Positions 32,301 through 60,055 of a DNA stretch of 64,000 nt are shown here, in pieces (position 1 is the stretch's first letter; every line of letters starts with the position of its first letter). Source of the stretch: Mya arenaria (taxonomy: Eukaryota > Mollusca > Bivalvia > Myida > Myidae); the NCBI RefSeq assembly GCF_026914265.1, contig NC_069124.1, positions 90,424,628 to 90,488,627 of the forward strand. Direction: 5' to 3'. The notes below the pieces were generated by a model. That model did not search any database and was not told the DNA's origin. It saw only the letters and a program-made list of their open reading frames with translations. Position numbers and translations under genes: made by a program.

Positions 32301-33958
32301 AACAAGTTACCGGTATATGTACTCCAACAAGCAGAAAAAGGACATTTGAAAGGTCATATATATAAAAACAAGTACAGTCGTTCCGGCTAGAGTTGTACCA
32401 ATCTATTACAATTTTCATGACAAAGCATTTGCAATCATTAGGTACAGTATCTAGTTTTAATCACTTTGATCAAACTTAACTAGAAGGAGTTTTAGCACCA
32501 TTCAGCATTGTTATCTCCCCTTGTTAATTTCCAATTCTCTTTGCTCATTTCAATGCTTTCATTCTTCAGTAACATTATTTTAAAAAATGTCCCTAGTAAA
32601 GGGAGTCATTAATTTTTAAAGTGGGACGCTTAGAAAGCAACATTACCACATGAACTCTATTTTATTCTTCAGCCTAAAAAGAAAAAAGCAAAGCAGGAAA
32701 AGAAAGAAAAAGAACCAAAGAAAAAGGCAGTAGAACCACCCAAAAAGAAGGCAGCATCTGCTGCCAAAGGTCCAAATGGAGACTATAGTTTTCAGGTGAT
32801 CTAAACAAAAAAACTGTTTAAAAAACGAATTTTCATGCAAACATTCAAAGGAGCGTCAAGCCATGTTATATTTCTTTGTAAATGTTGATAGGTTGGTTAG
32901 TAGACCAAACCTTAGAGAATGCTAGCACAAAGAATGAAACTTTGTATAGGGGTTGGTCATAAACAGCATATGACCCCTAGTAGTTTGGGGTCAGTAGGTC
33001 TAAGTTCAAGGTCGCCAAAAATTAAGAGAACGTCTGGACCTATGGTCCTCTAATTTGGTGGTGAGGTAGGCTATAGACTGTCGATCAAATCTCAATGTCT
33101 TCAGAGTGACTAAGTACGGGTACATGATTATCTTTTAAAACAGGTTTTTCAAAAAAAATAGAATGATTTAGAACTGTTTTGCTTGAAAGTTGATGATAGA
33201 TCAATGTTGTAATTTTTATAAACATATTATTTACCACTTCAATTGACCTATAAGGTACCTGTATAAATTGCATTAGCCATATTCTTGGCTTTATATTATC
33301 TATTTAACTTATTCACTGCTGTCAGAAGAATGTATATCGGTACATGTTTTACTGGAAACTATATCTTTAATGCCAACTTCTATAGCAACATTAAGATGAG
33401 GTCAAAAAAATTACCTACTATTCTTAAACTTGGAAGGGATGCTAGTTTAGTATAATTTCTAATTGGAACTTCACATAAAACATAGGGTGAGGCTTATTGT
33501 GTATTGTATTCTGTGTGGAACTTGGTATGAAACAACGGGTGAGGTTAAAAGGATTTTTTTCCAATTTCAGATAGCAAACAAGCGATTTGTGACTGTTAGT
33601 GAATTCAGAGGAAAGGTGATGGTTGGAATTCGGGAATTTTATGATGCTGATGGCGAGTTAAGACCTGGAAAGAAAGGTATTGATGATCTAAAAATTGAAC
33701 ATTCACCTTAAACATGTTTGAAGAAACTGCATCTTAGATTTTGATTGTATCTTATTCATAGGACATAAAACTTAAAAACAATAAAAGTGTGATCGCTCGA
33801 GGATGCCGGGGTCCGAGATGAAACCTTGAGGGAACCGAATTTTTGAACAAGTTCAATTTTCTAGTCTTTTTTCAGGGATAAGCCTGCCTCTTGATCAGTG
33901 GCGGCAGCTGAAGAATCAGATGGACGATATAGAGCAAGCCATCAGTGACCTTTCCTAG
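29328..33958 (+). CDS. SUB1: SUB1/PC4 RNA polymerase II transcriptional coactivator
   Basis: Positive cofactor 4 binds single-stranded DNA and stimulates activator-dependent RNA polymerase II transcription in the nucleus. Four exons (29328-29384, 32673-32795, 33571-33676, 33876-33958) join in phase. Together they encode 122 residues, against about 127 in human including the missing start. In order: a Ser-rich acidic segment (KSKEFVSSSDESSSDIEE, like the human SKELVSSSSSGSD region), a Lys-rich segment (PKKKKAKQEKKEKEPKKKAV), then the PC4 ssDNA-binding domain (KRFVTVSEFRGKVMVGIREF, GELRPGKKGISL, QWRQLKNQMDDIEQAISDL) to the stop. Only the initiator exon is missing; a candidate ATG is at 28045. 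Introns hold dispersed repeats, an endonuclease relic and a DNA-transposon end. Confidence 0.93.
29604..30982 (+). repeat. Pearl-like repeat element, copy 1 (SUB1 intron)
   Basis: It begins CTCGACTATTCGAAGAATAAG with CGCCCCAGCGTCGGCGTCAG. It carries about five tandem units of ~155 bp (TTTTAGGGCAAGTTGGGAT, ATACTTCACACAGTTGT, ATTATGGCCCCTGATTG). It ends in a hairpin GAGCACGCTGTCTTACGACAG then CTCTTGTT. The same start and end recur at 38.6-40.85 kb and 51.2-53.6 kb. The layout suggests a nonautonomous Helitron-like element. Confidence 0.7.
31360..32010 (+). repeat. Tandem array of ~155-bp units (SUB1 intron)
   Basis: About four units share CACAAATGTTCACCATATT, GGTTCAAGGTCAAGGTCACA-like and CATATCTCTTGAACCCCTTG-like segments, with units near 31390, 31545, 31705, 31855 and a partial at 31970. 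Confidence 0.75.
32130..32445 (+). pseudogene. Endonuclease (EEP-fold) relic of a mobile element
   Basis: Reads SVYKPSVDPISDFCQHLDDI, then STVIKVGDINVNIANS to a stop, then QVTGICTPTSRKRTFE in another frame. The pattern SVYKPP...GDFNxD...PT is that of apurinic-type endonuclease domains carried by LINEs and by Helentrons. The end of the domain (NFHDKAFAI) is reached near 32430 in yet another frame. No RT or helicase is joined to it. Decayed. Confidence 0.5.
32673..32795 (+). CDS. SUB1: SUB1 Lys-rich exon
   Basis: Acceptor TTATTCTTCAG, donor TTTCAG|GTGATC; 123 bp, phase 0 to 0. It is lysine-rich and ends GPNGDYSFQ, the start of the DNA-binding domain. Confidence 0.9.
33571..33676 (+). CDS. SUB1: SUB1 ssDNA-binding domain exon
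   Basis: Acceptor CCAATTTCAG, donor AAAG|GTATTG; 106 bp, ending in phase 1. It encodes the beta-sheet that grips single-stranded DNA (RFVTVSEFRGKVMVGIREF). Confidence 0.93.
33786..33850 (+). mobile_element. Fragment of the 45958-46842 TIR element
   Basis: TGATCGCTCGAGGATGCCGG and AAACCTTGAGGGAACCGAA match, with changes, the left end of the pogo-like element in the hexosaminidase gene. It lies in the last SUB1 intron. Confidence 0.6.
33876..33958 (+). CDS. SUB1: SUB1 last exon
   Basis: The acceptor TTTTTTCAG precedes 83 bp that complete GISLPLDQWRQLKNQMDDIE and QAISDLS, then TAG. It is the dimerisation helix of the PC4 fold. Confidence 0.92.
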
Positions 33959-38128: not shown

Positions 38129-38549
38129 ATGGCTGATATGGAGAGGGTATTTTGTGTGATGTTCTCTTGCTTGGTAGTTGTACTATGCAACACTCAAGAA
38201 CAGTACAGGGGTAAAAATGGTCGTGATTTCACAGATAAAATACAGGGTTCTGCTTGGCCGCAACCAAAATCATTGACAACCAGTATGACACAAAGAACAT
38301 TGGACGCCAGTGTTTTCCAGTTCCGTGTTTCAACGCCTTCAGAACGCTGTGACATTATTGATCAGGCGTTCATTCGCTACAGAAATTATGTATTTGGTAC
38401 AGATGTTGATACGTTGAAATTTAAGCCAAAGTCTAGACATGCATCTAGATCTGACCCATTACTCCGAAAGGCCACTCCACTGGAGGCACTGACAGTCAAG
38501 ATAGACACAAACTGTGATGGCTACCCTAATCTGGATTCTGATGAGTCAT
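38129..38549 (+). CDS. HEXA/HEXB: Hexosaminidase exon 1
   Basis: The start ATG reads [20 protein letters not shown], a signal peptide. It contains most of the N-terminal domain ([27 protein letters not shown]). Donor TCAT|GTAAGA, phase 1. Confidence 0.93.
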
Positions 38550-41500
38550 GTAAGAAAATAAAAGACATTCAAATGAAATGAATTTTATCTATAAAAATGA
38601 TTTTCCTAAAAACTAGCATTTCAAGATCGACTATTCAGGACTAAGGAAAATAATACTCCTCACCCCAGCATCGGTGTCAATTAAGTCACACCTTGATTTA
38701 GGTTTTGCATGTAACCACCTTTAGACAAATACAAATTAATTGCTAATAGTTGACTATTTGCTGAGTATTTCACCTTGGTAGGGGTGTTCATGCTCTTTCA
38801 CAAATATAAATTAATTGCTAATAGATGACTATTTGCTGAGTATTTCACCTTGGTAGGTGTGTTCATGCTCTTTCTTATTGCACAGGATGAACTACTAGTT
38901 TAACATGATCGTAATGCACCAGTCATTTGTATCCACGGCCCCCCCAGGTCCGGGGAATAGCGGGGACTTTGACTTTCGGTCCAGCCAACCCTGGCTAAAA
39001 TCCCTGCCCTGCGGGGACGAACAGATGGTCAAATCCCCGACAAATGCCCCCGCACCCCAGGGACCCTAGGTAAGGCCCATTCCCCGCTATATTTAAAGTG
39101 AAAACAAAACCACTGATTCACCCGGCACTGCGGGGCCACCTGAAAGGTTGAAACACGGCCCATTTCCCCGGCTGTCCCCGGTATACCCCCGGACCTGGGG
39201 GGACTGTGGTTACAATTGACTGGTGCATAACACTTCTTTTTTTTTTACATGTGACTGCTACATGAATAAATGCTGTTCTCTGAGAGTACCTGACTGATAC
39301 GCAAATATAGACCCTAGTTCAACATTTTTATTTGAGTCAATAAGATTTAAGGGTGGGCAGAAAAAAGAGGATACTTGCGGGATGAAAATCTAGCAATTAA
39401 TTTATAGTCTCCTTAGTAATTATCTCAGCAAATACATCATGTATTGCATTGTTACTTTAGATATGTATTCCAAACTATCCAACCAATCTAACTTAATTCA
39501 TGATCACCACGTTATCGTTTTAATCTATCTTTCCCTAAATAAGCATATCACACACTGGGATCATTTCGATAATTTGCCCCACGTCCCCCTGCATTAGACA
39601 ACACTATATGTGGCATTGCAAAGTGGTAATTAATGGTAATTAAGGTAATATAGGTAGATGTTTTTAATTTTCTGAAAGGTATTTCTTTGTTCCATCTTAA
39701 AAAATATAATTCTAGTCAGTTTAATTAAACTCGTGTAAGATAGGTTCATCCCGACCTGAGCATAGGGTGTTTTGCGGAAATGAGGTTTACCGAGTTTCTG
39801 CAAAACACCCTGCTCAAGGGTTGGGGTGAACCTATCTTACGTCAGCGGCTATGGCAGATGCTTTTTCTCCCACCTCAGTTAAACAAAATGAAGTAAAAAT
39901 GTATTTTTTTGGCTGGAACTCTTTTGTGCGTAGTGAAAATAAATGCGTTTGGATATATGATAATTTGTGGTTGTCATGGATATGCGTGCAGTGTTTCAGA
40001 TTATGTTAATAGTCAAATCAGTCTTTAAATAGTTCTGAGGCATTATTTCTTGAAAAAATTATGGTGCCATTTGAAGCGAGAAATAACTATTTAGCATTCT
40101 AAATATTGCCACAAGACAAGGTGTCCATAATGCTACAGACGACGGTCTTCAACAATGGAGGTAATTGTGTTATGACAATAAAAAAGGAGTTCCAAACGGG
40201 TACTTGTTTGATCTTTGCCAGTGGGCAAGATAAGAATTTCTAGCATGGTTAAAATTTTTGATCTACTTATCTGAGGTGGGAGAAATAATCATATACTGCA
40301 ATGACGCAATATCTCCTGCGAAGGCAATGCGTTGGTGGTGTAACACTATTTTAAGTATATTAAATGCAAATTGTTGCCCTGTATTATTCAACTTAGAAAT
40401 TCTGGTTGAGGTTTTGCATGTAAGCAACCATACCTTGGTAGGTTAAAATTTCAGTAACTACTGGAAATTTTGCATAAAGACCTTATACAACGGTTCTCAA
40501 CCATCCAACCTACTCAAATAAATTATTTTGCATATAATGCAAATAATGACCTTTTATTATTTGACTTAGAAATTCTGGTTAAGGTTTTGCATGTGACCAA
40601 TATCTCAGCAAATACATCATGTACATCATTAAAACTTTATAGAAGGGCTTCCAACCATCCAACCTTCAGGCTAGATAATTCTATCTTGCATTTTATATAA
40701 ATTTTGCCCCTTTCTTTTTTTACTAAGAAACTCTGCTTAAGGTTTTGCATGTAACCTAATTAAACAGCGTTCCATGTTCATCAAACTTTACAATCCTTAA
40801 ACTTAAAAGTGGGTGTAAATAGACCAGCATGCTGTCTCTGTTAGAGCTCTTGTTTTATCTGTCATTTTACATTTTACTTTTAATACACTGGTTAAAGAGT
40901 ACTATAAACTTGTAAGCACATTTTGTTTTATTGCACAAATATTAAAACATGTTATGCAGTTGAGAGTGGACAATTATTCCAGTCCTAACTTGCTGTTGTT
41001 TCAGATACTCTGCAAATTACAGAAGATGGTACAGAGGCTTCCATACAGGCCAGCCAAGTGTGGGGCGCTCTAAGGGGTTTGGAGACGTTCAGCCAGTTGG
41101 TTTTCCAGAACTCCTTTGGCACTGTAATATCATATGCATATTATTCATGATGTTGTTATTTAATAACTTGAGAAATACTAAATATTTCTCAAGAAAGAAA
41201 GTTAGGACCCTAATCTAAAAATCAGTATGATAAAATTTTGATTTATGTGATATACTTATTGTACGAATGAGTTCACATGCCAAACATACCAGTAAAATCC
41301 ACTGAAATGACATGTACTGTATCAATATTTTGCAAGCTTAAAATAAAATTATATATTCATTTTAAAGAAATCCCAGAAAATGTTCCACTCTGACATATAT
41401 GTTTGAATATTAATTAATTTTTATATTGCAATATTTTGATGTATATTTTCAGTTTGTTGTAAATGCCACTGCGGTGAATGATGTTCCGAGATTCAAGCAC

Positions 41501-44500
41501 AGGGGTGTTTTGTTGGACACCTCAAGACATTTCCTGTCCATGAGAGTGTTGAAGGAAAACTTGGTTTGTAGCAGCATGTCTTAAGATTGTTCTAGCAAGA
41601 ACTCTTTTATGGTATTACATAATTTAAGTGTGAATTCAAAAAAAAATTGTAACAAAGTCTACTAGAATTAGTACCGTATATACCAGTATATGTACAAAGT
41701 ATAATATGTTTGATACAAACATACATTGTTTGAAATGAATACTATAAAGGAATACCTTCCAATCATAATTAATTTATTTTTAATGTAAATTTAATGCAAA
41801 TTGCATAATAATATATAACTGAATTATTAGCTATGGAATGGAATAAAGTTTACCATTCTTTTATGCAGGAGCTGATGTCACAGAACAAATTCAATGTTTT
41901 CCACTGGCACATAGTAGATGATCAGTCGTTCCCATATGAAAGCAATACATTTCCAGATATGAGTGTGAAGGTAAAGAGAAATAAATGATGTCAAATTTTA
42001 AATGATATAGTTTGTTCTTATTAAGCTGTCAAAGTGGTGATTATTGAAACCTTATTCGTAGAAGCTCTTTTATTACGATTTATGATTGGAGTTGAAGACT
42101 GGCGATCTCATTAGAAATGGACAGTTCATGTTTAAGCCAAGTGTTAAAAAGGACTGGATACTGCTGAAAAGACACAGGATGCTAAGGGTGAAAAAGGCAC
42201 ATTGTATCAGAGTGTGAAAGAACTTGAACATTATGAACTTGACAGAAAATGTTGGGAAGTGTGTTTAATTGTAGTAATTGTAGCCTTCAACTGCCGAATA
42301 TGTGGTTTGTATGTATAAAATCATTTTTAATCAGTTTTAATTAAAACAAAATTATTATTTGACGGTCTAGAGCATTTATTTCTCTGAAGGCAGAAAGGTG
42401 ACCATGCTGATATCCGTAAGGGAAGAAGGGTGCGACCAAAACAAGATAGACTGCAGCACCTTTTCATTATTCTAAGGTTACACACCACCATTGTCATTTC
42501 CTCTATAATTCAATGTGAAATGATTATTTTTAGACAATATTTAAAGGCATTTCGAGCGAATGCAGACTATGATAAACATATATATTCGTAAAGTACAAGC
42601 TTTAAATTACCTTTTAAGCCAATAAAAAAGGGGGGTCAAGTTATTCCTATGAAAAATCTCTCCACTTGAAAAACAAACTCTCAAAATGGCACAGTCCGCC
42701 ATGACAGTTCTTCCAAAATTACCTTTCAACTATAGGGCAGCAGTTTATGCTTAAATCTCTATTCTAAATAATAAATCAAGCAATAATAGATACTTAAGGT
42801 ATAAAAGTTTATGGAATAAGGATAATTTTTATTTAAAGTGTATTGTGCATGTGAAAACATGTCAATCAGTCATGAAAACATTATTTTTTTATTGAGAATT
42901 TTCCACACAACGGAAGTACATATGATGCAATGGTGATGCCATACCTTTAAGCTAAAGCCCTATGGATGGCATTTTGAATCCAATGGCTAAGCAGCCATCT
43001 TTTGACATGCATGTACCAGTTTACACTATCCACTCAAAATAACGATTCATTCTTCTGTGAAAAGTTTACATTTATTAAGGGCAGGGATTTACATCTGCAC
43101 ATACAATATAATTATATATGTAACATTTTTATGAAACAGGTTTCCTCTCATTCTGTCAATGTTTGTTTGTGTTTTTTAGGGAGCTTACTCACCCAGACAT
43201 GTTTACACTTATGAAAATGTGAAAGAAATTATTGAGTTTGCTCGACTGCGTGGCATACGAGTAATTCCTGAATATGACACACCAGGTAAGAAGTAGCTCC
43301 AATAACATAGTATAATCTTAATGAATATCAACATGCTAACAGTTATTAGTTCCTTGGAATCAGGTCACGCTCATATACTTAGAACGTTTGGCTATTGCAT
43401 AATGTATAATGTATGACATTGACTTTGCCTTTGTTCATAAATTTCTTTCAAAAGACCTCTGTTAACATTTCCATCAATACTGTATATACATTCTAGTATT
43501 ACATATGGTTTAAAGGTCACACTCAATCTTGGGGTAAGGCCATAGAAGACCTGCTCACCAAATGCTATAAGGGAACAGAGTGGACTGGGGAGTATGGCCC
43601 CATAAACCCAGCCCTGAACTCTACCTTTGATTTCCTGGAGAAGTTCTTCACAGAGATATCCCAGGTGTTCCCGGACCACTACATGCACCTCGGAGGGGAC
43701 GAGGTGTCATTTACATGCTGGTAAGCAATCCGTTAAATGGTTGGTGAATATTCTGCTGTATTGAACTATTCACAAACAACTTTGCACATGTGTGTGTTCT
43801 GCCCTGTAATTTAACTCCCCAATTAGAAACCTATTTAATTGGGTTTGCATTTAACATTTGCTGAAAAAAATGACATAAGCCTTTGATTGATACAATTATA
43901 ATTGTTTTAAACACATTTTAACATCATTATTTGCTTGTTTTTTATTGTGACAAGCAGAAATAGTTCCTATAGGTCTGCGATCCATTTAAAAGATGATTAC
44001 TATGTTATTATGTCTGACCTGTTATTGCATTTTTACAGGGAGAGTAACCCTGATATCACAAAGTTCATGCAGGCAATGGGCTTTGGGAAAAAATACTCGG
44101 CTCTGGAAGAGTACTACATGCAGAGGTAACAGCAAAGCAAACATGTAGAAGTGTTTATTGTTGACTTCCAAAAATGGCCTATAAAGTCTCACTGTTACCA
44201 TGTATAATGATGTTGTAAAAATTATCAAGATGTGCAATAAGTTTCATTTAAAAAAAGTTTTTTTGTTTTTTTTTATTCCGACAAAGAATGGTTACTAATG
44301 GTACTAAATGGAGATTATCTTGTCATCAATTTTTGAATATGCGCTTTGTAACGAGGTGTTCCTGTTATTTAGTTGGGGTATGACGTTAGGCACCTGGGAG
44401 GGCGGATTAGCTTGTGCTTGAGATGGCCTCAACAATTAGTTAAGCTGTAACTTGGCATTGCATAATTGGATTTTTAAATAACTTGGCAAATGATCACTAT

Positions 44501-47500
44501 GACAAAATGGTGTGTTATGTAAAAAAAATCATGTCTGTAGGTCAAAGTTGAAGGTCACACAAAACAGTCATTGGTCAAATTCTTTAGATCGGAGTATGTT
44601 GTTGGGGTTGCTGGCTTTTCAGAGTGCAAGCTGATTAAAGCTGGTGATTGACATTGCCTCAACAATCTGTACGGGCTTTATCTTTGCCATGCTAAAGGAG
44701 ATTTTATAATAACTTGGCAAATGTTCACCATGACAAGATGGTGTGTTGCTGCAAGGCCCATGTCTGTAGGTGAAAGTTCAAGGTAACATTAAAGATAAAC
44801 ATTGGTCAACAACTCTTGTATTTCATTTTCCTGGCTTTAATTTGGCCATGCGTTTTGGAATTTAAAAATAACTTGGAACAAATGTTCACTATAATTAGCT
44901 TGATGCCAGAACAAAACCAATAAAACGATGAGTTCTTTATCAATAAAGACACTAATATTCAATTAAACAACCTTGCAAGAAAACTGTTTAATAATTCCTA
45001 CTCAGCGGCGGGCTTTTTGCCAACATAGACCAGATTGACAAGGGTATATGCTCACTATATGATTGGTCTATGTTGGCAAAAAGCCCGCCGCTGAGTAGAA
45101 ATTATTACTAACTGAGTATGGCCACTTTTGTATGGCAAATTGATAAACCAATGAAAACAGAAGACTAAAAATGGTGAAATGCAATTAAATCAGTTTCTTA
45201 ATTCTGGCAACAAAAGGTCAAATACGGCAACACCATACTGATGTTTCTTTCGTCATATTTACCACTCAAATTTATTTTTTGAAAATGCATTTTTTTTTTT
45301 TAAATAAAGTCACTAAAAACACATTGTTGTGAAGCCATGTTATGAAACAACAGAACAAAATGAAATTATGAGCCTCTGACAGCTTCTGGAAGACTGAAAC
45401 AGTTATATAGAATGGATACTCTGTTGGGTATTTCCTTTACATTCCACTAAAAATGGAGAATAAAGGTGTATTTGTTCAGGATTATAATTTTAAATAATTA
45501 TGTGTAAATAAAAGAATGGTATCAACATCATCCACTCCTTTTTATAAGTGAGATAGAAAAATAGTATTATAGCTTGACCACTTGATCCAATTGTTTTTGT
45601 CCATAATCTGACGAGAAAAAAAATGAAATTGATGTGGTTTTATGAATACCGGTATCCATTTTATAAAAATTTCCATGTTGTTGATATAAAAATGATGTAT
45701 TTCAGATTAATAAACATTGTGAATGGTGTGAAGAAAGGCTACATGATTTGGCAGGAGGTCATTGATAATGGGGCTAAGGTAGGAGGTTTTTGTTCACATA
45801 AAACTTTGTTTGTTTTACCAGACAGCAATACATGATTGGTTCTTGTTTAATCTTGTCTGAGGTTGATTGCAAAATAAAGCTACTTGGTACAATTTAGATT
45901 GCATTTGATAACAAGTTGAATTGCACATTTATAAACTGTGTTTGAGCATGTTATCTACAGTAAAACTGCGATCGCTCGAGGTCACCAGGGACCGAGACAA
46001 AACCTCGAGGGAACCGATGTTTCGAGCGACCTGATTTTCAATTTCCAGTTTGATATGAAATATCTTTCAGTGTATTTTAAGTTTGAAGTCGTCAAACAGA
46101 CTGTTTACTAAGACACCGATTCTTTCCTGTAAAGGACGTGAGTGGGCGTGTTGGTGTCTTGGTATAAGTAATGGGTCCTTCATTAGATTTCTCAGGTGTT
46201 TGACAATTATTTTCTTTCATTTGGGTGTGTCATTTTGAAAGTAAGGAACCCGATCTAGCTATCCCCCCAGTCATGGATCCTTCACTAGATTGCTCAGGTG
46301 TTCGACAATTTGTAAGTTCTTTCTCATTTGCCATATTGCAAAGCTAAGTGACAAGAAGGAATTATTTTCAGAGATTCCTATGTTGGATCGATATGGTAGT
46401 GTTTTAATCATATTTTTATTACTCATTTAAATTTCTCACAATGAACTTCTCGTCATTAACTTGTCATAATTATCATCTCAAATGCCCATATCAACTAATA
46501 TCGGTCATGCGTTAACAGTGATAAACGGTTTTTCACACCTTATCAAATTGCCTTTTAACTGTCATTGCAATTTTTACAACTTGCGAAAATTTTAACACCT
46601 GGCAATTGTTTGTTTATTTTGGAACACGCGTTCGGGAAAAAGTGTGAAATTATGACCTCGAGGGAGCCTTAAGGTTTTGTGCACGATTTGTGTACTTTGG
46701 ACCGAGGATATTGCTCGACTGCTCGACATAATTAGGTTTCGAGGCAGCGTGGGTATATTTTATATGAAAATAGAAGGAAAAAAGTTCGGGACCAAGCTCC
46801 GACCTCGAGCGACCGCTTGTTCGAGGGAACGCAGTTTCACTGTATTTAACTTCTTCATTTTTTTTGTCTTTTTTGAAGCTTGTTACTTTTTATGCTGTAA
46901 GGATATTTTGAAGCTTTGTCTATTTACAGTCTTTTGTATTCCATTAATGATTTCTATTTTTATGAGGATCCATATCATGGGCTAGTTTGTCCAAGTACAA
47001 CCTATAATTTGATCCAAGTCATGTTATGTGCCTTATTCAGAATGTCAATGTGGTAGGCATTTATGCAAATGCCATTTGAAAACTCCAGCATCAGAACATG
47101 AAAAATGAAACATAAATTAATGTTTTAAGATGCAAGACCTTTAAATGTCTGACCTCAATCGGATTCAGTGATGAAGAGCCCTCTGTTATTGCACATGTTG
47201 TCAAGGTCATGGGCATTTGTACATCATTTAATGTCCTCAAGCAGTTTAAATCATGTACATAACAATGGTCAGTCTCTTTACCTTATATGTGTAGCATTGA
47301 TTTTGAACACACAATCTTGAACATTATGCATGTTATGTGATAAAGATTTAAATCCTTCAAAAGGTTCGAGAGATACAGACAGCACCTGGAAAATAATGAT
47401 CCAACTTTTGACCTTTATATGAGACCTTGAGGCTTATACAGTCTCATAATCATCTAGGTTCAAGGGAACAGAGGGGGGGGGGAATGTAGTAAATTACTTT

Positions 47501-50500
47501 TTTATTCTTCTATCTTATTGACAAAGCAGATATTTCAGGAATACTATCATTTTTAAATTAAATACATATTTGTGGAGGCACTTTAGTTGCATAACAAATA
47601 GTTTTGCCCGTAGGTATCAGACGACTCAGTGATACATGTGTGGAAAAGTGGCTATGAAATGGAAGTATTTACTGTTACTCTCCTTGGCTACCAAGTGGTG
47701 CTATCTGCTCCTTGGTACCTAAGCGATATATCATATGGACAAGACTGGATTCACTATTATCAAATTGAACCAGTTAATTTTAATGGTAAGGCATTTATAA
47801 GAGCAAACCACCTTTAGATTTGAACTTTTGGCACTTCTGTGAATGTTCTAAAAGCTTGGTTTGCTAGATATTGTATTGGCTTGTGAAGCATTACTTTGAG
47901 TTATGATTTAAACATGCCTTTACCTTAAACAAGAACAAAGAAGGACGTCTGGTTCAACAAGTGTTACATCCATTTATAGTTGACTTAGAAATGGCTAGAA
48001 CTTAGTATTGGGTGAGAAAAGTTTTATATTAGTATTACTGTGAAATCATTAAAGTTCGTGGGGCATTTAATGGTTTTCGTGGGTTGGGTGATCCACAAAT
48101 TCAAGATCCCACGAAATATTGATCCTTTTTTCCCTTTTTCATTGCCATGTTATGTACATACTCTAGTTTATTCATTACAGAGGCCGCAGTATAGATCGTA
48201 AATATCTGTCTAACTGTATATCTTACTATCATTGTTTTGTTAATATGTTATATCAGCCTTTAACAAATAATAAACCAAATCATACCATGTTCTGTTCATG
48301 AAAATCTCCAGGTTTACAAGATGTGAGTGATGAGTGTCGGTTTTCGATTTTATTTCTTTAATTAAATAATTAATTGATTACATTAGAGGTTTCTGAGCAC
48401 CCAATGTGACAATGTACAAAACAAAGCGTTTAATATACTTATTAAACAAAAACGTGTGAATAAATATTGAAATGAGATGATATTCAAAAGTAATTGAATT
48501 TTAAACATCAGCTATCTTTAGGGATTGTTAACTCAAATAAACGGACCTTCTCGGTGTTTTCACAGTTTGCAAAATTCTTAATTGGCATTCAATGGCTTCG
48601 TCTATTTGTATTAAGGATCAAGGTACATGTACATCTTCTTTACTGACCTTAATTTCCAATTAAATCGATAATTGACACGGATATATGCACTAATTGGCAT
48701 GTTGTACCACTTAAGCGATTGTCATAAACAGAGTGATGTAGACAACGGAAATCAAGGGCCAGCGCATGGAATGCAGACGATCTAGGTTGATAGCAATTTC
48801 GATTATTTTTTTTTTCACAAATGAAAAACCACGAATTCAAGTACCCACGAAATTGTAATTTTTCGGCAAACCACGAAATTTCATGCCAACGAATATAAAT
48901 GATTTCACAGTATACCTCCAGGTTAACAAAAATACATGTGATAGTAAATGTGAACAATGTTCAATCTTGAAGTTCTGTCTAGGTTGCTGCAGACACTGTT
49001 GTTCATGTATGGAAGCCAGGCTATTGGTCAGAGCTTGCAAGGGCTACTGCCCTTGGTTTCAAGATTGTATTATCTGCCCCTTGGTACCTTGACTATATCT
49101 CATATGGCCATGATTGGATGGGCTATTACAAAATTGAGCCTTTTGAATTCAATGGTAAGATAATATTAAAAAGTGTCAGCTTGATTAAAATGCATGGTCT
49201 TTGCAGTGTCATCAATTCTTCAAATAGCGTTTAAAAACCTTTGTCCTGTACGTTAATTGTAACAACATAAAGTGTCCATAATTTGCAATGATTAAAGAGT
49301 GAAACACCTATTTAGGTTATACAATATTACATGGAATAATAATAATAATGTTGATCAGCATTTCAATTGTTCAGAAAAATAATATGCATAATTAATAGTC
49401 TGATCACACAGCAAAAACCATGCACTTACAAGCTAAGTTCCATTCACTCCCTAATCTTACTTGTAGTCGCTTGCATGTTGTAGGTGGCAGATGATTCTGT
49501 TGTTCATATTTGGAAAAGAGGCCTCTTTGAGGCTGAGCTTGCTAAGGTCACTGGTCTTGGGTACAAAGCTATTTTGTCCGCTCCTTGGTATGTGAACATT
49601 ATCTCATATGGAGATGACTGGAAGAAATACTACAAAATTGAACCACTGTCATTCAATGGTGAGAACTGCACATGCAAAGGCCACATGTTAGCGATTAACC
49701 AATACTGAATTAATACTGAGTCTTTGACTTTGCTATTTTGGCTTGGCTGAGTTGTATTAGCTTGATTAACCAATACTGAATAAATATTGAGTCTTTGACT
49801 TTGCTATTTTGGCTTGGCTGAGTTGTATTAGCTTGATTAACCAATACTGAATTAATATTGAGTCTTTGACTTTGCTATTTTGGCTTGGCTGAGTTGTATT
49901 AGCTTGATTAACCAATACTGAATTAATATTGAGTCTTTGGCTTTGCTATTTTGGCTTGCTGAGTTTTATTAGCCTGTCTGGTATTAATGTATTATGCATC
50001 ATATGCCATACATCTTGGCTAAAACTAAAAAAAACACTCAAGATATTCAAATGAATCTTAGTACACATTTGGCCAGATTCTATACACACGTGAAACAATG
50101 ACCATAATAATAATTATTAAGTGTTGCCCTTGTTCCATTGAAAACAAAACTAGGGTATAAGTATTGGCAGGCACTTGGTGGGGCTCTTGCTTTTATTATA
50201 AAAATGAAGCAGCCAAATTTATGTAATGAATTCTGCTTGTGTATAAGAAACAGGATGGCCTTTGAGGTCATGTGGCAATTTTCAGCTTTTGATACTTAGC
50301 CTGGCATGTAGAATGATTTCAATGTTTTAGGTGGCTAGTGACACTGTGATAGGGGTATGGAAGGGAGGTTATCAGGAAGAACTTACCAAAGTTACTGCCC
50401 TTGGATATAAAACACTTCTTCTTTCACCCTGGTATGTGAATTACATATCATATGGTCAAGACTGGACAAAGTACTACCAAATTGAGCCTCTCAATTTCAA

Positions 50501-53500
50501 TGGTGAGAAGTTAATTATCACCCATATATTATGAAATCATTGTCACTGGACACTGTAAAACCTGTATTTAAAACCCACTCTGCTTGTGCCACATTTTTTA
50601 TATGAAGAGCTTTTTCACAGATTAAATACTTGTATGTTCATTGTAATCACATAGAATGTTCTGTGCTATGCTTCATAAAGGTCGCACTATACTTTTCAGT
50701 TATGACCTTACCCTACTAACACATTCTGCACCTAGAAATGTTTTACCCAACTAAATAGGGGTGGAAAATTGGGGGGGGGGGGTCTTTAGACTGCAGGTGA
50801 TTTCTGACAGGTTGGATTTTGACAAGCCCATGTATATTGCCACCCAGGAAATACTTAAATTAAAAACTTCTTTTTATGAACAGACTTAGATGCATTTTTT
50901 ATATGATTATATACACATGGAACACCCCTGATCCCAGGGATTTTGACAAATTTCTTCAACAAGGGTTGGATACCATATTTAAAGAATGTCTCAATCACCT
51001 CAGTGTAATCCCCCCCCTCCAGATGAGGGGGAAAACATTGATAGGTACATTAGATGGTCTGGTAATACTGTGCATGGAAATCCTCACTATGAACAAAACT
51101 ATGTTTGATTAATCCCTTTGAATTTTACAAGTATGGTAATTAAGTTTTACTAAATGAGCTGACAGGATTTTATTGGCACGCCTATTCGAAAAATAAGGTT
51201 GACAAAACTACTTGCTCCAGTGTCTGGGTCAGCTTCTGCATCCGGTCCAGTTGTTGAGGACCATCACACAATGAGATTACATAACTCCATATTGCCCTTA
51301 ATACAAATTATGGCCCCTGATTGACTAAGGAACTTAGGTTAAAGTTTTAGGGCACATTGTGTCCAGTTTAAGTTTTAGGGCAAGTTAGGATTTTTACTAA
51401 TACATTATATACCCGTCATTCAATTTACTTTATACTTCACACATTTGTTTACGGTTATCTCACAATTAGGTTTCATTACTCCATATTATCCTAAATAGAA
51501 ATTATGGCGCCTGATCAACTTAAATAGCACATTTTTATTTTTTTAACCAAGTTTTTACAAAGTAAAACCTGGTAATTAGAATGATGTACATCGTTGTTTG
51601 GGGAGCCGGCAGGAATGCGGCGTCAAACTCACCTATGATATTGAATAATTTTATTTTGGTTCGTCATATAGCAACCAGGCTTAGTATATAGGAAGTGTTT
51701 ATGGAGACCTTTCATAGGACTGTGTTTGGGGCCTCAAGGTTGAAGGTCAAGGTTACTGTAGCTAAAAAAAGAACAAGTTGCCAGAAATATTTGGACAATT
51801 GAATGAAATATGCATGGACTGAAATGACAGCTGATTTGTCATTGGATGCATATGAGGCAGGTCATCTACTGGTCATACCTAATCTTCATGTCAAGTTTGA
51901 TGACCATAGGTCCGGGAATTGTTGAGTTATCACTCGGACAAGCTTTGGTCTTCCAACAGACCGACCGACATGTGCAAAGCAATTATATAACCCCTCTGCT
52001 TCGAAGGGGGGCATAATTAAACTAGATGTTCACTGAAAACTGATACTTCAACTCATGCATTTAGTGACATATAAATTTCTACTGTCTACTATATAAGAAA
52101 ATAAAATATGGACAATCAGAAAACCTTTTTTCAGCTTACAGTCACACTGACCTTGACCTTTGACCCACTGACCTCAAAATCAATAGGGTTCATCTGCTGG
52201 TCATGACCAATAAGCCTACCTAGTATGAGGTCCCTGGGTCAAAGCGTTCTCAAGTTATTGATCGGAAACCGTTTTTCATGTTAAGGTCACACTGACCTTG
52301 ACCTTTGACCCACTGACCTCAAAATCAATAGGGTTCATCTGCTGGTCATGACCAATACACCTACCAAGTATGAGGTTCCTGGGTCAAAGCGTTCTCAAGT
52401 TATTGATCGGAAACCGTTTTTCATGTAAAGGTCACACTGACCTTGACCTTTGACCCACTGACCTCAAAATCAATAGGGTTCATCTGCTGGTGATGACCAA
52501 TACACATACCAAGTATGAGGTTCCTGGGTCAAAGCGTTCTCAAGTTATTGATCGGAAACCGTTTTTCATGTAAAGGTCACACTGACCTTGACCTTTGACC
52601 CACTGACCTCAAAATCAATAGGGTTCATCTGCTGGTGATGACCAATACACATACCAAGTATGAGGTCCCTCGGTCAAAGCGTTCTCAAGTTATTGATCGG
52701 AAACCATTTGGTATTCCTACCGACCGACCGACAGACCGACCGACCGACCGACCGACCGACATGTGCAAAACAATATACCCCACTTTTTTCAAAAGGGGGC
52801 ATAAAAATTATTGATACTGCATAACTTTAGTTGGGTTGACATATTGCAACCAAACTTGGTTTACAGTATAGGAAGAAATTATAGAGACTTCTTGGGATCT
52901 TGTTTGGGACCCCAAGAGTCATAGTCAAGAAAACTGTAACTAAAAATAGAAAAATGGTTAGTACTGAACAACATTAGTTAGGGTTGATATATTGTAACCA
53001 AACTTGGTATATAGGAAGAGTTTATAGAGAACTTGAATGGGATTGCATTTGTGTCCCATAGGATCCAGGTCACTGTTATTAAAAACAAAAATAGTTGGTA
53101 CTGAATAACTTCAGTTAGGGTAGACCAAACTTGGTATATAGAAAGAGTTTATTGAGACCTTTCATGGGATTGTGTTTGGGGCCCCTAGGCGAATGTCACT
53201 GTTACAAAAAATTGATATCCATTTGATATTGAATAACTTTATTTAGGGTTGACATATTGTGACCAATCTTGGTATGTATGAAGAGTTTACCGTATGTGTT
53301 TGCATTTGTGGCTCTTTAGAGTCAAGGTCAAGTACACCGTGACAAAATAATAGAAAAAAGGATGAAACTGAATCTCACAATGAAGGCTACAGTTATTCTC
53401 TCAATAATTAAAAACATGGTTTTGTTGCATTGCTGCATTTCTTGTTTACTTTTCAAATATCTTTTTATTGCTTTTGACAGGCATATATTATATCATCGTA

Positions 53501-54766
53501 TTCATTTCTAAGACAAAGGAGTGTATATTTGAGCATGCTGTCTTATGACAGCTCTTGTAATTTTCATGTTTCCATTTACCTAACGAAAACTATATAATTC
53601 ATAGGTCATCAGTAACTTCAGTCTATATTCAAAATATAATTTTAAAAAGCTTTAAAATTTGCTACATGTGTATTTATTGAAAACTAGTTTATGAATGAAC
53701 CTCAAGGAGTTCTATGTATGTATTAACCAGGTACCGCTAGTCAGAAGGCACTGATCATGGGTGGGGAAACTTGTATCTGGGGAGAGTTTGTGGACGACAC
53801 CAACCTTACACCCAGGCTCTGGTGAGTACTCATATCACATGACTCGGCAATTCTCTTTCATTGGTTGATTTATTTTCAGAAAAACAAGTTCTTCGTTTAA
53901 CAACAACAAACTTAACCGTAGACTTAAACCTTTTAAATTGATACTACACAAAGATAGGTATTTATTTATCCCTTTATAGTCATATACTAATCTATGAATA
54001 AGTTGCCCATAAAGCATGAGTGTGTGTATATTTCAGGCCGCGTGCATCTGCTATAGCTGAGCGGCTGTGGAGCCCTGCCAACGTGAATGACTCTGGGAAG
54101 GCAATGGGAAGGCTGGAGGAACACAGGTGTAGGCTTATCAGGTACACTTCTTTACTTCGAAAACTAACTGACTTTAACATTCATTATATCTACCAAGGAA
54201 TATTTAACATTTACATGCTATTCTGTTGTATACTAATTCAGCAGAATTTGACAATCATTAGAAAGCTGCTTAAAGATAATGAATACAACTCTTAATTGAC
54301 TACCGGTATATTCATCCTCTTCATGAATATAGTCATGTCAGACAAAATATTTTTATGTCATAAAATCATGTTGTTGTTTTTTTAACTTAAAAAGCAAAGA
54401 AAAATTGCTTACAAATCACCGATTTGGTCTTGCTGCTAAATAAAAATAAGGTTTATGAAAGATGTTCTTATGAAGTTTAAGGCTATTCATTTTAATCTTG
54501 TCTGTCTTCTGAAGAAAAGAAAGGGTATATATTTAACTGAAACTTGGTACACATGTTGCCAGAGAATGTACACACATAAAGAGTTATGCCCCTTTTCAAA
54601 TGATAAAAAAATAAATAATTCTTGGAATTCTCACTGCGGTGCCCTTGTGATGAAACACATTTATCAATTATCCTGTCAGTACCCATTGAAGTATTTTTAT
54701 TTTTCCAGGCGAGGATTCCCTGCAGAGCCAGTGAATGGACCTGGGTTTTGTGACTATGAATATTAA
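38129..54766 (+). CDS. HEXA/HEXB: Beta-hexosaminidase (GH20) with four alternative exons 9
   Basis: Lysosomal glycosidase that removes terminal beta-GlcNAc/GalNAc from glycoproteins, glycosaminoglycans and gangliosides. Exons: 38129-38549, 41005-41123, 41453-41563, 41869-41970, 43180-43285, 43516-43720, 44039-44125, 45706-45778, one of four exons 9, 53731-53821, 54037-54141, 54709-54766. With exon 9a, 9b or 9d the product is 549 residues (human HEXA 529, HEXB 556). Seen in order: a hydrophobic signal peptide (about 7-20), the N-terminal GH20b domain ([42 protein letters not shown]), then the TIM barrel with Arg205 (LLDTSRH), [15 protein letters not shown], the His of DTPGHTQSW, catalytic Asp348-Glu349 ([12 protein letters not shown]), WQEV, exon 9 Trp and Tyr, and W-GE of CIWGEFVD. 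N-glycosylation sequons include NAT (184) and NST (321). No break is seen. Introns contain many repeats. Confidence 0.96.
38915..39227. mobile_element. PIF/Harbinger-type MITE, copy 2 (HEX intron 1)
   Basis: 313 bp between TAA duplications (38912-38914, 39228-39230). The ends are TGCACCAGTCATTTGTA and, inverted, TGCACCAGTCAATTGTAACC. It is homologous along its length to 27045-27374. It is nested inside the pearl-like copy 2, so it is younger than that element. Confidence 0.85.
39735..39840. repeat. ~106-bp foldback (HEX intron 1)
   Basis: GTAAGATAGGTTCATCCCGA and GGGTGTTTTGC pair with GCAAAACACCC and GGTGAACCTATCTTAC around GAGGTTTACCGAG. Confidence 0.8.
41005..41123 (+). CDS. HEXA/HEXB: Hexosaminidase exon 2
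   Basis: Acceptor TTGTTTCAG, donor GGCACT|GTAATA; 119 bp. It encodes [20 protein letters not shown] and [21 protein letters not shown], strongly HEXA/HEXB-like. Confidence 0.95.
41453..41563 (+). CDS. HEXA/HEXB: Hexosaminidase exon 3
   Basis: Acceptor ATTTTCAG, donor AACTTG|GTTTGT; 111 bp, phase 0 to 0. It holds [13 protein letters not shown], whose Arg (205) binds the sugar in the family (HEXA Arg178). Confidence 0.94.
41869..41970 (+). CDS. HEXA/HEXB: Hexosaminidase exon 4
   Basis: Acceptor TTATGCAG, donor GTGAAG|GTAAAG; 102 bp, phase 0 to 0. It holds [19 protein letters not shown], a barrel strand lining the active site. Confidence 0.95.
42473..42950. mobile_element. Possible MITE with imperfect ~20-bp TIRs (HEX intron 4)
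   Basis: TAAGGTTACACACCACCATTG on the left resembles the complement of CAATGGTGATGCCATACCTT on the right. No target duplication was confirmed. Confidence 0.35.
43180..43285 (+). CDS. HEXA/HEXB: Hexosaminidase exon 5
   Basis: Acceptor GTTTTTTAG, donor CACCAG|GTAAGA; 106 bp, ending in phase 1. It encodes [20 protein letters not shown] and [16 protein letters not shown]. Confidence 0.95.
43516..43720 (+). CDS. HEXA/HEXB: Hexosaminidase exon 6 (catalytic Asp-Glu)
   Basis: The acceptor GGTTTAAAG is weak but the frame is continuous (DTPG-HTQSWG); donor TGCTG|GTAAGC. 205 bp encode the catalytic pair in [13 protein letters not shown] (Asp348/Glu349; HEXA Asp322/Glu323) and the typical [14 protein letters not shown]. 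Confidence 0.95.
44039..44125 (+). CDS. HEXA/HEXB: Hexosaminidase exon 7
   Basis: Acceptor TTTTTACAG, donor CAGAG|GTAACA; 87 bp. It encodes [20 protein letters not shown] then [10 protein letters not shown]. Confidence 0.94.
44380..44880 (+). repeat. Dispersed repeat, two to three ~230-bp units (HEX intron 7)
   Basis: Units share CCTCAACAATTAGT-like, AATAACTTGGCAAATG, CTATGACAAAATGGTGTGTT and CATGTCTGTAGGTCAAAGTT segments. Confidence 0.65.
44990..45107. repeat. 118-bp foldback with 43-bp arms (HEX intron 7)
   Basis: TACTCAGCGGCGGGCTTTTT and GCCAACATAGACCA pair almost perfectly with their complement across a 31-bp loop. Confidence 0.85.
45706..45778 (+). CDS. HEXA/HEXB: Hexosaminidase exon 8
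   Basis: Acceptor TGTATTTCAG, donor GCTAAG|GTAGGA; 73 bp, ending in phase 0. It encodes [20 protein letters not shown] then NGAK; the Trp of WQEV is HEXA Trp373. It is the common upstream partner of all four exons 9. Confidence 0.94.
45958..46842. mobile_element. Pogo-like TIR element, ~885 bp (HEX intron 8)
   Basis: The ends CAGTAAAACTGCGATCGCTC and, inverted, CAGTGAAACTGCGTTCCCTC are flanked by TA on both sides (45956-45957, 46843-46844). A CAGT-R-AAAC end with TA duplication is typical of pogo/Tigger-type Tc1/mariner elements. No transposase is recognised inside, so it is probably a deletion derivative. Confidence 0.75.
47614..47785 (+). CDS. HEXA/HEXB: Hexosaminidase alternative exon 9a
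   Basis: Acceptor TTTTGCCCGTAG, donor AATG|GTAAGG; 172 bp, phase 0 to 1. It reads [20 protein letters not shown]... to [15 protein letters not shown] and [10 protein letters not shown]. Trp418 and Tyr443 (HEXA Trp392 and Tyr421) are kept. The substrate-specificity pair is Ser445-Asp446. Confidence 0.92.
48038..48910. mobile_element. TIR element, ~873 bp, between exons 9a and 9b
   Basis: The ends CTGTGAAATCATTAAAGTTC and, inverted, CTGTGAAATCATTTATATTC are flanked by TA (48036-48037, 48911-48912). Subterminal repeats of CCCACGAAAT/TTCGTGGG type lie inside both ends. It is Tc1/mariner-like, nonautonomous. Confidence 0.75.
48983..49154 (+). CDS. HEXA/HEXB: Hexosaminidase alternative exon 9b
   Basis: Acceptor TTCTGTCTAG, donor AATG|GTAAGA; 172 bp, phase 0 to 1. 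It reads [20 protein letters not shown]... to [15 protein letters not shown] and [10 protein letters not shown]. The specificity pair is Asp-Tyr, so the first position is as in HEXB. A second AG ten bases inside would shift the frame. Confidence 0.92.
49484..49658 (+). CDS. HEXA/HEXB: Hexosaminidase alternative exon 9c
   Basis: Acceptor CATGTTGTAG, donor AATG|GTGAGA; 175 bp, one codon longer, phase 0 to 1. It reads [20 protein letters not shown]... to [15 protein letters not shown] and [10 protein letters not shown]. The specificity pair is Asn-Ile; the Asn is as in HEXA. Confidence 0.92.
49693..49980 (+). repeat. 71-bp tandem repeat, four copies, between exons 9c and 9d
   Basis: Copies start at 49693, 49764, 49835 and 49906 with GATTAACCAATACTGAA and contain TTTGCTATTTTGGCTTGG. 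They differ at a few bases only, so the array is young. Confidence 0.9.
50331..50502 (+). CDS. HEXA/HEXB: Hexosaminidase alternative exon 9d
   Basis: Acceptor AATGTTTTAG, donor AATG|GTGAGA; 172 bp, phase 0 to 1. It reads [20 protein letters not shown]... to [15 protein letters not shown] and [10 protein letters not shown]. The specificity pair is Asn-Tyr. Confidence 0.92.
51176..53558 (+). repeat. Pearl-like repeat element, copy 3, with nested arrays (HEX intron before exon 10)
   Basis: It starts GCCTATTCGAAAAATAAG with CTTGCTCCAGTGTCTGGGTC and ends GAGCATGCTGTCTTATGACA then GCTCTTGT, the same termini as 29604-30982. Inside are TTTTAGGGCAAGTT units and TTGGTATATAGGAAGAGTTT units. Two nested pieces each end in GACCGACCGACATGTGCAAA and a GGGGGCATAA tail (near 51954-52016 and 52718-52803). 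Confidence 0.65.
52138..52715 (+). repeat. Four 145-bp tandem units rich in nuclear-receptor half sites
   Basis: Units start at 52141, 52286, 52431 and 52576 with GTCACACTGACC and are nearly identical. Each holds TGACCTTGACCTTTGACCC, which on the other strand is a DR1 arrangement (GGGTCAAAGGTCA) plus a further AGGTCA. A GACC microsatellite follows (52718-52760). Confidence 0.9.
53731..53821 (+). CDS. HEXA/HEXB: Hexosaminidase exon 10
   Basis: Acceptor TATTAACCAG, donor CTCTG|GTGAGT; 91 bp, phase 1 to 2. It encodes [20 protein letters not shown] then [11 protein letters not shown]. The Trp and Glu of WGE are HEXA Trp460/Glu462. Confidence 0.95.
54037..54141 (+). CDS. HEXA/HEXB: Hexosaminidase exon 11
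   Basis: Acceptor TATATTTCAG, donor ATCAG|GTACAC; 105 bp. It encodes [20 protein letters not shown] then [15 protein letters not shown]. Confidence 0.95.
54709..54766 (+). CDS. HEXA/HEXB: Hexosaminidase exon 12 (stop)
   Basis: Acceptor ATTTTTCCAG. It encodes [18 protein letters not shown] then TAA; the Cys near the end is conserved in the family. Confidence 0.95.
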
Positions 54767-57043: not shown

Positions 57044-60000
57044 GTATGGTCCCACCTCACTAGACGTATGGTCCCACCTCACTAGACGTATGGTCCCACC
57101 TCACTAGACATATGGTCCCACCTCACTTGACGTATGGTCCCACCTCACTAGACATATGGTCCCACCTCACTAGACGTATGGTCCCACCTCACTAGACGTA
57201 TGGTCCCACCTCACTAGACGTATGGTCCCACCTCACTAGACATATGGTCCCACCTCACTAGACGTATGGTGCCACCTCACTAGACGTATGGTCCCACCTC
57301 ACTTGACGTATGGTGCCACCTCACTAGACGTATGGTCCCACCTCACTTGACGTATGGTCCCACCACACTAGACGTATGGTCCCACCTCACTTGACGTATG
57401 GTCCCACCTCACTAGACATATGGTCCCACCTCACTTGACGTATGGTCCCACCTCACTAGACGTATGGTCCCACCTCACTAGACGTATGGTCCCACCTCAC
57501 TAGACATATGGTCCCACCTCACTAGACGTATGGTCCCACCTCACTTGACGTATGGTCCCACCTCACTAGACGTATGGTCCCACCTCACTAGACGTATAGT
57601 CCCACCTCACTTGACGTATGGTCCCACCTCACTAGACGTATGGTCCCACCTCACTAGACGTATGGTCCCACCTCACTAGACTTATGGTCCCACCTCACTA
57701 GACGTATGGTCCCACCTCACTAGACGTATGGTCCCACCTCACTAGACGCATGGTCCCACCTCACTAGACGTATGGTCCCACCTCACTAGACGCATGGTCC
57801 CACCTCACTAGACGTATGGTCCCACCTCACTAGACGCATGGTCCCACCTCACTTGACGTATGGTCCCACCTCACTAGACATATGGTCCCACTTCACTAGA
57901 CGCATGGTCCCACCTCACTAGACGTATGGTCCCACCTCACTAGACGCATGGTCCCACCTCACTAGACGTATGGTCCCACCACACTAGACGTATGGTCCCA
58001 CCTCACTAGACGTATGGTCCCACCACACTAGACGTATGGTCCCACCTCACTAGACGTATAGTCCCACCTCACTAGACGTATGGTCCCACCTCACTAGACA
58101 TATGGTCCCACCTCACTTGACGTATGGTCCCACCTCACTAGACATATGGTCCCACCTCACTAGACGTATGGTCCCACCTCACTAGACATATAGTCCCACC
58201 TCACTAGACATATGGTCCCACCTCACTAGACGTATGGTCCCACCTCACTAGACGTATGGTCCCACCTCACTAGACATATGGTCCCACCTCACTACACATA
58301 TGGTCCCCCACACTAGACATATGGTCCCACCTCACTAGACCTCACTAGACATATGGTCCCACCTCACTAGACATATGGTCCCACCTCACTCCACATATGG
58401 TCCCACCTCACTAGACGTATGGTCCCACCTCACTAGACGTATGGTCCCACCTCACTAGAGGTATGGTCCCACCTCACTAGACGTATGGTCCCACCTCACT
58501 AGACGTATGGTCCCACCTCACTAGACATATGGTCCCATCTCACTAGACGTATGGTCCCACCTCACTAGACGTATGGTTCCACCTCACTAGACGTATGGTC
58601 CCACCTCACTAGACGTATGGTCCCACCTCACTAGACCTCACTAGACATATGGTCCCACCTCACTAGACCTCACTAGACATATGGTCCCACCACACTAGAT
58701 GTATGGTCCCACCACACTAGACATATGGTCCCACCTCACTAGACATATGGTCCCACCTCACTAGTCGTATGGTCCCACCTCACTAGACGTATGGTCCCAC
58801 CTCACTAGACCTCACTAGACATATGGCCCCACCTCACTAGACCTCACTAGACATATGGTCCAACCTCACTCCACATATGGTCCCACCTCACTAGACGTAT
58901 GGTCCCACCTCACTAGACCTATGGTCCCACCTCACTAGACATATGGTCCCACCTCACTAGACGTATGGTCCCACCTCACTAGACATATGGTCCCACCTCA
59001 CTAGACGTATGGTCCCACCTCACTAGACGTATGGTCCCACCTCACTCCACATATGGTCCCACCTCACTAGACGTATGGTCCCACCTCACTAGACATATGG
59101 TCCCACCTCACTAGACATATGGTCCCACCTCACTAGACGTATGGTCCCACCTCACTAGACGTATGGTCCCACCTCACTAGACATATGGTCCCACCTCACT
59201 AGACATATGGTCCCACCTCACTAGACATATGGTCCCACCTCACTAGACATATGGTCCCACCTCACTAGACATATGGTCCCACCTCACTAGACGTATGGTC
59301 CCACCTCACTAGACGTATGGTCCCACCTCACTAGACATATGGTCCCACCTCACTCCACATATGGTCCCACCTCACTAGACATATGGTCCCACCTCACTAG
59401 ACATATGGTCCCACCTCACTAGACATATGGTCCTACCTCACTAGACATATGGTCCCACCTCACTAGACATATGGTCCCACCTCAATAGACATATGGTCCC
59501 ACCTCACTAGACATATGGTCCCACCTCACTCCACATATGGTCCCACCTCACTAGACATATGGTCCCACCTCACTAGACATATGGTCCCGTCACACCACAC
59601 TAGAATTATGGTCCCACCACACTAGACATATGGTCCCACCTCACTAGACATATGGTCCCACCACACTAGACATATGGTCCCACCTCACTCCACATATGGT
59701 CCCACCTCACTAGACGTATGGTCCCACCTCACTAGACATATGGTCCCACCTCACTAGACATATGGTCCCACCTCACTCCACATATGGTCCCACCTCACTA
59801 GACATATGGTCCCACCACACTAGACATATGGTCCCACCTCACTAGACATATGGTCCTACCTCACTAGACATATGGTCCCACCTCACTAGACATATGGTCC
59901 CACCTCAATAGACATATGGTCCCACCTCACTAGACATTTGGTACCACCTCACTAGACATATGGTCCCACCTCACTAGACATATGGTCCCACCTCACTAGA

Positions 60001-60055
60001 CATATGGTCCCACCTCATTAGACATATGGCCCCACCTCACTAGACATATGGTCCT
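57044..60055 (+). repeat. 3-kb satellite of a 22-bp unit
   Basis: About 137 head-to-tail copies of a unit made of GGTCCCACCTCACTAGAC plus GTAT or ATAT. Variants: a T for A in CACTTGAC, GCATGG in a cluster near 57749-57950, and longer units with CTCACTAGAC doubled near 58338, 58638, 58660 and 58810. The left third is mostly of the CGTATGG type, the right third almost wholly CATATGG. The unit is not a codon multiple, so coding is unlikely. Confidence 0.97.

Follow-up and report, generated by a model that had tools for sequence, protein, structure and literature searches.

The bivalve Mya arenaria carries, in a 64-kb stretch of contig NC_069124.1 (positions 90,424,628 to 90,488,627 of the forward strand; hereafter, the window), a single glycoside hydrolase family 20 (GH20) beta-hexosaminidase gene in which exon 9 is present in four tandem versions, 9a to 9d. 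Very probably all four are functional and form a mutually exclusive cluster, each transcript using a single one of them. One-at-a-time use is strongly supported because of the logic of the reading frame, the constraint on the versions and the conservation of residues of the substrate pocket. The initial annotation had proposed that mutually exclusive splicing produces four isozymes; its first part now draws on the 4 of 16 exon combinations that can be read through, a dN/dS (omega) of 0.16 and the pocket residues, while the actual production of four isozymes is a further step that we infer.

A beta-hexosaminidase gene with four versions of one exon

The gene occupies 38129-54766 on the + strand and has 12 exon positions, with GT-AG introns throughout (exon limits were read from the sequence).

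38129-38549, + strand: exon 1, with ATG and GT donor; alignment of the product to HEXB begins at residue 40
41005-41123, + strand: exon 2, gapless against HEXB across the 3' junction; weak donor ACT/gtaata
41453-41563, + strand: exon 3, from alignment to HEXB; weak donor TTG/gtttgt
41869-41970, + strand: exon 4, from exon limits and alignment to HEXB
43180-43285, + strand: exon 5, from exon limits and alignment to HEXB
43516-43720, + strand: exon 6, containing the GGDEV catalytic Asp-Glu pair
44039-44125, + strand: exon 7, from exon limits and alignment to HEXB
45706-45778, + strand: exon 8, constant, ends in phase 0
47614-47785, + strand: exon 9a, alternative pocket exon, 172 bp; S/S/D at HEXB positions 426/452/453
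48983-49154, + strand: exon 9b, alternative pocket exon, 172 bp; P/D/Y; closest to HEXB
49484-49658, + strand: exon 9c, alternative pocket exon, 175 bp, one codon longer than 9a, 9b and 9d; R/N/I
50331-50502, + strand: exon 9d, alternative pocket exon, 172 bp; G/N/Y
53731-53821, + strand: exon 10, constant, starts in phase 1
54037-54141, + strand: exon 11, from exon limits and alignment to HEXB
54709-54766, + strand: exon 12, including the stop codon, from exon limits and alignment to HEXB

By its domains and overall sequence the product is a HEXA/HEXB-type GH20 beta-hexosaminidase, for which lysosomal location, dimer formation and activity are predicted. The gene outside the cluster had been described as intact, and it is: the product reads without internal stop to 549 amino acids with 9a, 9b or 9d and to 550 with 9c (stop excluded), and its 9b form matches the Pfam families PF14845 (E 1.9e-26) and PF00728 (E 9.4e-93). 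A PDB search with the product returned 54 distinct sequences at E 0.001, headed by full-length HEXB chains (616.9-620.7 bits, 5bro highest), with HEXA at 591.1 bits. The start of exon 1 is hydrophobic and signal-peptide-like as judged by eye. Since the HEXB alignment is ungapped over the weak-looking exon 2/3 and 3/4 junctions, the gene model is supported there as well.

The motifs DTSRH, VDD, DTPGH, GGDEV, IWQEV, APWY and WGEF are all found in the 9b form, aligned to HEXB; in 9d, APWY is replaced by SPWY. We take them, partly as an assumption, to supply the pocket Arg, Asp, His, Asp-Glu, Trp and Glu. In the human alpha subunit, R178, D207, H262, D322, E323, E462 and R424 contact the ligand in wild-type or mutant models (PMC3377590; this and the papers cited below are represented by excerpts). 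The constant loop in exon 6 (GTEW; 43516-43720) appears by eye closer to the alpha GSEP loop than to the beta RQNK loop.

The four exons lie where the initial annotation had placed them, with lengths of 172, 172, 175 and 172 bp, and all four have an AG acceptor, a GT donor, entry in phase 0, exit in phase 1 and a stop-free coding frame. Over the six pairs, identity is 60-65% at the protein level and 63-70% at the nucleotide level, in agreement with the value of about 60% first estimated by eye for 9a against 9b. When each version was searched against the 64-kb window by tblastn, the other three were recovered at E 2.9e-24 to 9.0e-23, and all remaining matches had E of at least 0.13. With the whole protein (E up to 1), each of the remaining 11 exons was found in a single place, so that exon 9 alone is multiplied and, as first described, the cluster is flanked by a single exon 8 (ending at 45778) and a single exon 10 (starting at 53731). 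In Pfam searches with single exons, one of the four matched (9b, E 0.0073, below the curated cut-off); the complete 9b product gives an unambiguous match. The versions agree with what is expected of predicted mutually exclusive exons in length, splice-site type, frame, similarity and internal neighboring position between exons 8 and 10; the criteria for such predictions include a length difference limited by default to 20 amino acids (PMC3228551).

Each version also ends with an invariant Asn that forms an N-G-T glycosylation sequon with exon 10 (junctions 47785, 49154, 49658 and 50502 to 53731), the HEXB counterpart of which is G-G-T. To our knowledge, human HEXA and HEXB each have one copy of the exon 9 segment. 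Published HEXA exon limits were sought for a comparison of human exon borders and were not found; we presume that HEXA exon 11 measures 184 bp and runs from phase 0 to 1, which would fit the borders of exon 9. As a separate observation on exon 9, 19 stretches fit a pattern for prokaryote relatives, of which four weak loci were confirmed; these were not used.

Reading frame, age and constraint of the versions

Sixteen subsets of the four versions are possible, and the four that read to the normal stop are each a single inclusion. Because the versions all start in phase 0 and end in phase 1, splicing any one to another breaks the frame; exon 8 ends in phase 0 and exon 10 starts in phase 1, so joining exon 8 to exon 10 is likewise out of frame. 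In the other 12 subsets (none, two, three or four versions), reading ends early, at a stop 172-605 nt upstream of the final exon junction, and stops placed this far upstream are expected to trigger nonsense-mediated decay. Such decay has a part in mutually exclusive clusters, and is said to be unable to police clusters of more than three versions, because the lengths of several versions can add up to a multiple of three (PMC6071210). Here, inclusion of all four gives a total coding length divisible by three, yet a stop arises at codon 502. Constitutive use of all four versions was ruled out by this stop and by the out-of-frame junction between any two of them.

The same frame arrangement could serve a different end. 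If the versions were included differentially rather than strictly exclusively, transcripts with two or none in some tissues would provide a switch by which the mRNA is destroyed (poison splicing). All non-single combinations do give an early stop in a position suited to nonsense-mediated decay, and the introns between versions (329-1197 nt) are long enough for versions to be joined to each other. However, poison exons need not retain pocket residues, and the constraint on the protein sequence points to in-frame use; we therefore regard this as a very improbable primary role. Poison splicing may nevertheless exist as a by-product of one-at-a-time use.

The constraint itself is seen in the divergence between versions. 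Across the six pairs, the proportion of nonsynonymous differences (pN) is 0.21-0.25 and that of synonymous differences (pS) 0.67-0.85, with silent sites near saturation. A codon model fitted to 9a-9d gave a one-ratio omega of 0.16, and omega 1 was rejected (twice the log-likelihood difference, 60.1). The three tree topologies lie within less than 1 log unit of each other, so the data favor no particular order of duplication. Across all four versions, 27 of 58 alignment columns are identical, including W424 and Y450. Identity to HEXB is 62% for 9b and 51-56% for the other versions, which means that the versions are about as distant from each other as 9b is from HEXB.

An alternative is that a single version works, probably 9b as the most HEXB-like, the remaining three being functionless duplicates of old date that are spliced rarely or never. 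Besides the closeness of 9b to HEXB, tests on terminal branches lend this some weight: omega 1 was not rejected for 9b (p 0.089) or 9c (p 0.82), taken singly, although it was for 9a (p 0.035) and 9d (p 0.0025), in what is a weak test given 57 codons and saturated silent sites. The results for 9b and 9c count against a role for every version. On the other side, all four versions are stop-free with intact splice sites despite near-saturated silent change, and their donors all score 8.7-9.3 bits, within the better half of the 14 donors of the gene (with an approximate matrix).

As a control for neutral decay, exon 9b was decayed along the fitted branch lengths, with even base frequencies assumed. 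An open frame and splice sites were retained in 0.25-1.15% of the runs per copy. With both copies drifting, protein identity never exceeded 25% (1000 runs per pair), compared with the 60-65% observed; when only one copy drifted, the 99.9th percentile was 32% for 9a, 47% for 9c and 33% for 9d (2000 runs). Pseudoexons were rejected on this control, observed identity being far above simulated, and a single working version among functionless duplicates is accordingly improbable.

The initial annotation had also named misassembly among the findings that would overturn its reading. Haplotype copies, or separate tandem HEX genes, might have been collapsed into one locus; false duplications do occur in eukaryote assemblies, and tandem repeats are abundant in the window (46 rows). 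Yet the copies are not near-identical, with differences at no fewer than two thirds of their silent sites, and the surrounding introns are not homologous: the five around 9a-9d (1835 nt for 8-9a, 1197 nt for 9a-9b, 329 nt for 9b-9c, 672 nt for 9c-9d and 3228 nt for 9d-10) had one 14-nt match in common across their ten pairwise blastn comparisons (E 0.01). No second copy of any other exon was found in the window, which contains no N. Misassembly is thus strongly disfavored, and we consider an artefact the least credible of the alternatives, with hardly any probability left to it. Altogether, as judged from their divergence, the versions are old and constrained as a set, rather than a recent duplication in the assembly.

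Pocket residues and substrate choice

Exon 9 maps to HEXB residues 416-471 (numbering of 3lmy). W424, W449, Y450, the ISYG motif and the DW motif are invariant in 9a-9d. The description of exon 9 as an active-site exon holds for the pocket, since W424, Y450 and positions 452 and 453 are encoded here, but not for the catalytic Asp-Glu pair, encoded by exon 6.

Between these fixed points, HEXB D426, D452 and L453 are replaced by S, S and D in 9a, by P, D and Y in 9b, by R, N and I in 9c and by G, N and Y in 9d. The loop after W424 has the HEXB length in 9c and is one residue shorter in 9a, 9b and 9d. In the human enzymes, D426, D452 and L453 are listed among the changes that affect sialic-acid binding, the alpha loop after W424 is longer (S427 to DIPV), and alpha N423-R424 in place of beta D452-L453 is the chief cause of alpha activity on 6-sulfated or sialylated substrates (PMC3587417, including its Table 1). 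A similar role is given to alpha R424 and beta D452 (PMC8162980), and a D452N/L453R HexB has been described (PMC3243693); 5bro reads NR at the position of HEXB 452-453. Version 9b retains the beta-type Asp at 452, 9c and 9d have the alpha-type Asn, and 9c adds a nearby Arg at 426. On the protein sequences, the versions thus vary at the known alpha/beta specificity switch.

D426, D452 and L453 all fall within the 16 of 58 columns that have three or four different residues, which has a chance of 0.018. Several observations nevertheless weigh against a shift in specificity. No version has the alpha-type R at 453, the longer loop in 9c has the HEXB length and is no step towards alpha, and the fourth position of the table, S427, is Gly in all four. 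When S427 is counted, the chance that at least three of the four positions vary is about 0.06 as computed by hand, which makes for a weak enrichment that may be due to loops being variable in general. With so weak a statistical signal, the case for specificity is based chiefly on what these residues are known to do.

We consider a change of substrate preference between versions to be possible, at somewhat less than an even chance. The full proposal is slightly more tentative still: one gene would use four-way mutually exclusive splicing of pocket specificity determinants, at positions separating human HEXA from HEXB, to make four subunits, which could pair into as many as ten dimers. Anionic substrates, whether sulfated or sialylated, would then suit 9c (R/N/I) best, and neutral ones 9a and 9b, which have an Asp among these positions.

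Choice of version, known systems and surroundings of the gene

How one version would be chosen was addressed through the introns and splice sites. Docking/selector pairing was sought between either flanking intron and the three internal ones, and nothing rose above 6 shuffles of two-base blocks. In a run with 40 dinucleotide-preserving shuffles, from which the transposon-like insert of the 9a-9b intron (listed below) was left out, the best common docking site was no better than in shuffles (19/40 for the left intron, 37/40 for the right), and the summed score was reached by 13/40 (left) and 36/40 (right), a design of little power, with one genome and ungapped helices. This lack of a pairing above shuffles is one point against the proposed cluster of mutually exclusive exons.

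Mixed U2/U12 splicing and steric exclusion by a short intron are disfavored because of the donor type (gtaagg, gtaaga, gtgaga and gtgaga in 9a-9d, U2-like by eye) and the 1197, 329 and 672 nt of the introns between versions. U2/U12 incompatibility and steric exclusion suit two-version clusters only (PMC6071210). The acceptor is TAG in all four alternative exons (47611-47613, 48980-48982, 49481-49483 and 50328-50330), versus 1 of the 10 constant ones, which may mean that the versions inherited it from a common ancestral exon or that it is a weaker site under regulation.

Enzymes with mutually exclusive exons are known. In human CYP4F3 and PKM, such exons alter the substrate preference or the regulation of one enzyme, with two versions and other folds. 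Enzyme precedents thus exist, and what is new here is the place, the pocket exon of a hexosaminidase. The arrangement resembles that of the insect Dscam, Mhc, 14-3-3zeta, MRP1 and srp clusters, products of tandem exon duplication from which a single version is used each time, with neighboring homologous internal exons of similar length and the same phase and splice type (PMC3228551, PMC6071210). In contrast to Dscam-type clusters, the host is a lysosomal-type glycosidase, docking/selector pairing was not detected and splicing is predicted from the gene sequence. Insect chitin synthase CHS-A is likewise a carbohydrate-active enzyme with mutually exclusive exons (177 bp, 59 amino acids), but it has two versions, and they encode a membrane-spanning segment near the C terminus rather than a substrate pocket (PMC2561029). 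The human HEXA/HEXB subunits differ at 426, 427, 452 and 453 of the exon 9 segment and so in substrate choice (PMC3587417, PMC8162980); unlike this pair of genes, the M. arenaria locus is one gene with four exons, has R at 453 in no version and is constant at 427.

The initial annotation knew of no report for a lysosomal glycosidase, and we found none of a hexosaminidase, or another glycosidase, with alternative versions of a pocket exon among the open-access matches listed (titles and abstract starts). The excerpts of a paper on human mutually exclusive exons contained none of the enzyme terms sought (PMC5740500). In the Manila clam, mutually exclusive exons are among the rarest splicing events, and 'hexosaminidase' is absent from the excerpts of that paper (PMC9803972).

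Elsewhere in the window, the following features were found.

48036-48912, no strand: transposon-like insert in the 9a-9b intron, with 27-nt inverted ends, 85% complementary arms and TA at both edges
49693-49973: tandem array, 4.0 x 71 bp, in the 9c-9d intron
52141-52709: tandem array, 3.9 x 145 bp, in the 9d-10 intron
57044-60054: array of about 3 kb of a 22-bp unit, downstream of the gene
23936-25282, + strand: DDE_Tnp_1_7 family transposase, which we take to be piggyBac-like
15803-16249, + strand: reverse transcriptase fragment
4360-5082, - strand: protein kinase domain, upstream of the HEX gene
33463-33708, + strand: PC4 transcriptional coactivator domain, upstream of the HEX gene

Without the insert, the 9a-9b intron would measure 320 nt, close to the 329 nt of 9b-9c; the insert lies beside the proposed mechanism and is not part of it.

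In this mechanism, an old tandem exon duplication would have given rise to four versions of exon 9 in one gene. The spliceosome would splice exon 8 to a single member of 9a-9d, which in turn would be spliced to exon 10, and wrong splice products would be cleared by nonsense-mediated decay. The four resulting subunits would keep the catalytic residues of exons 3-6, 8 and 10 and would differ in the loop after W424 and at two and three residues past the pocket Tyr (HEXB 452-453). In humans, these positions separate the beta subunit, acting on neutral substrates, from the alpha subunit, acting on 6-sulfated or sialylated ones. Since Hex acts as a dimer, mixed enzymes would be possible, and splicing within one gene would match the role of the vertebrate HEXA/HEXB gene pair.

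The variable positions are at the heart of the enzymology of Tay-Sachs and Sandhoff diseases and of engineered HexB. If the proposal is true, splicing would have solved in this bivalve the alpha/beta split in specificity that vertebrates solved with two genes, and the locus would offer four natural pocket variants in a fixed scaffold for studying substrate choice by hexosaminidases.

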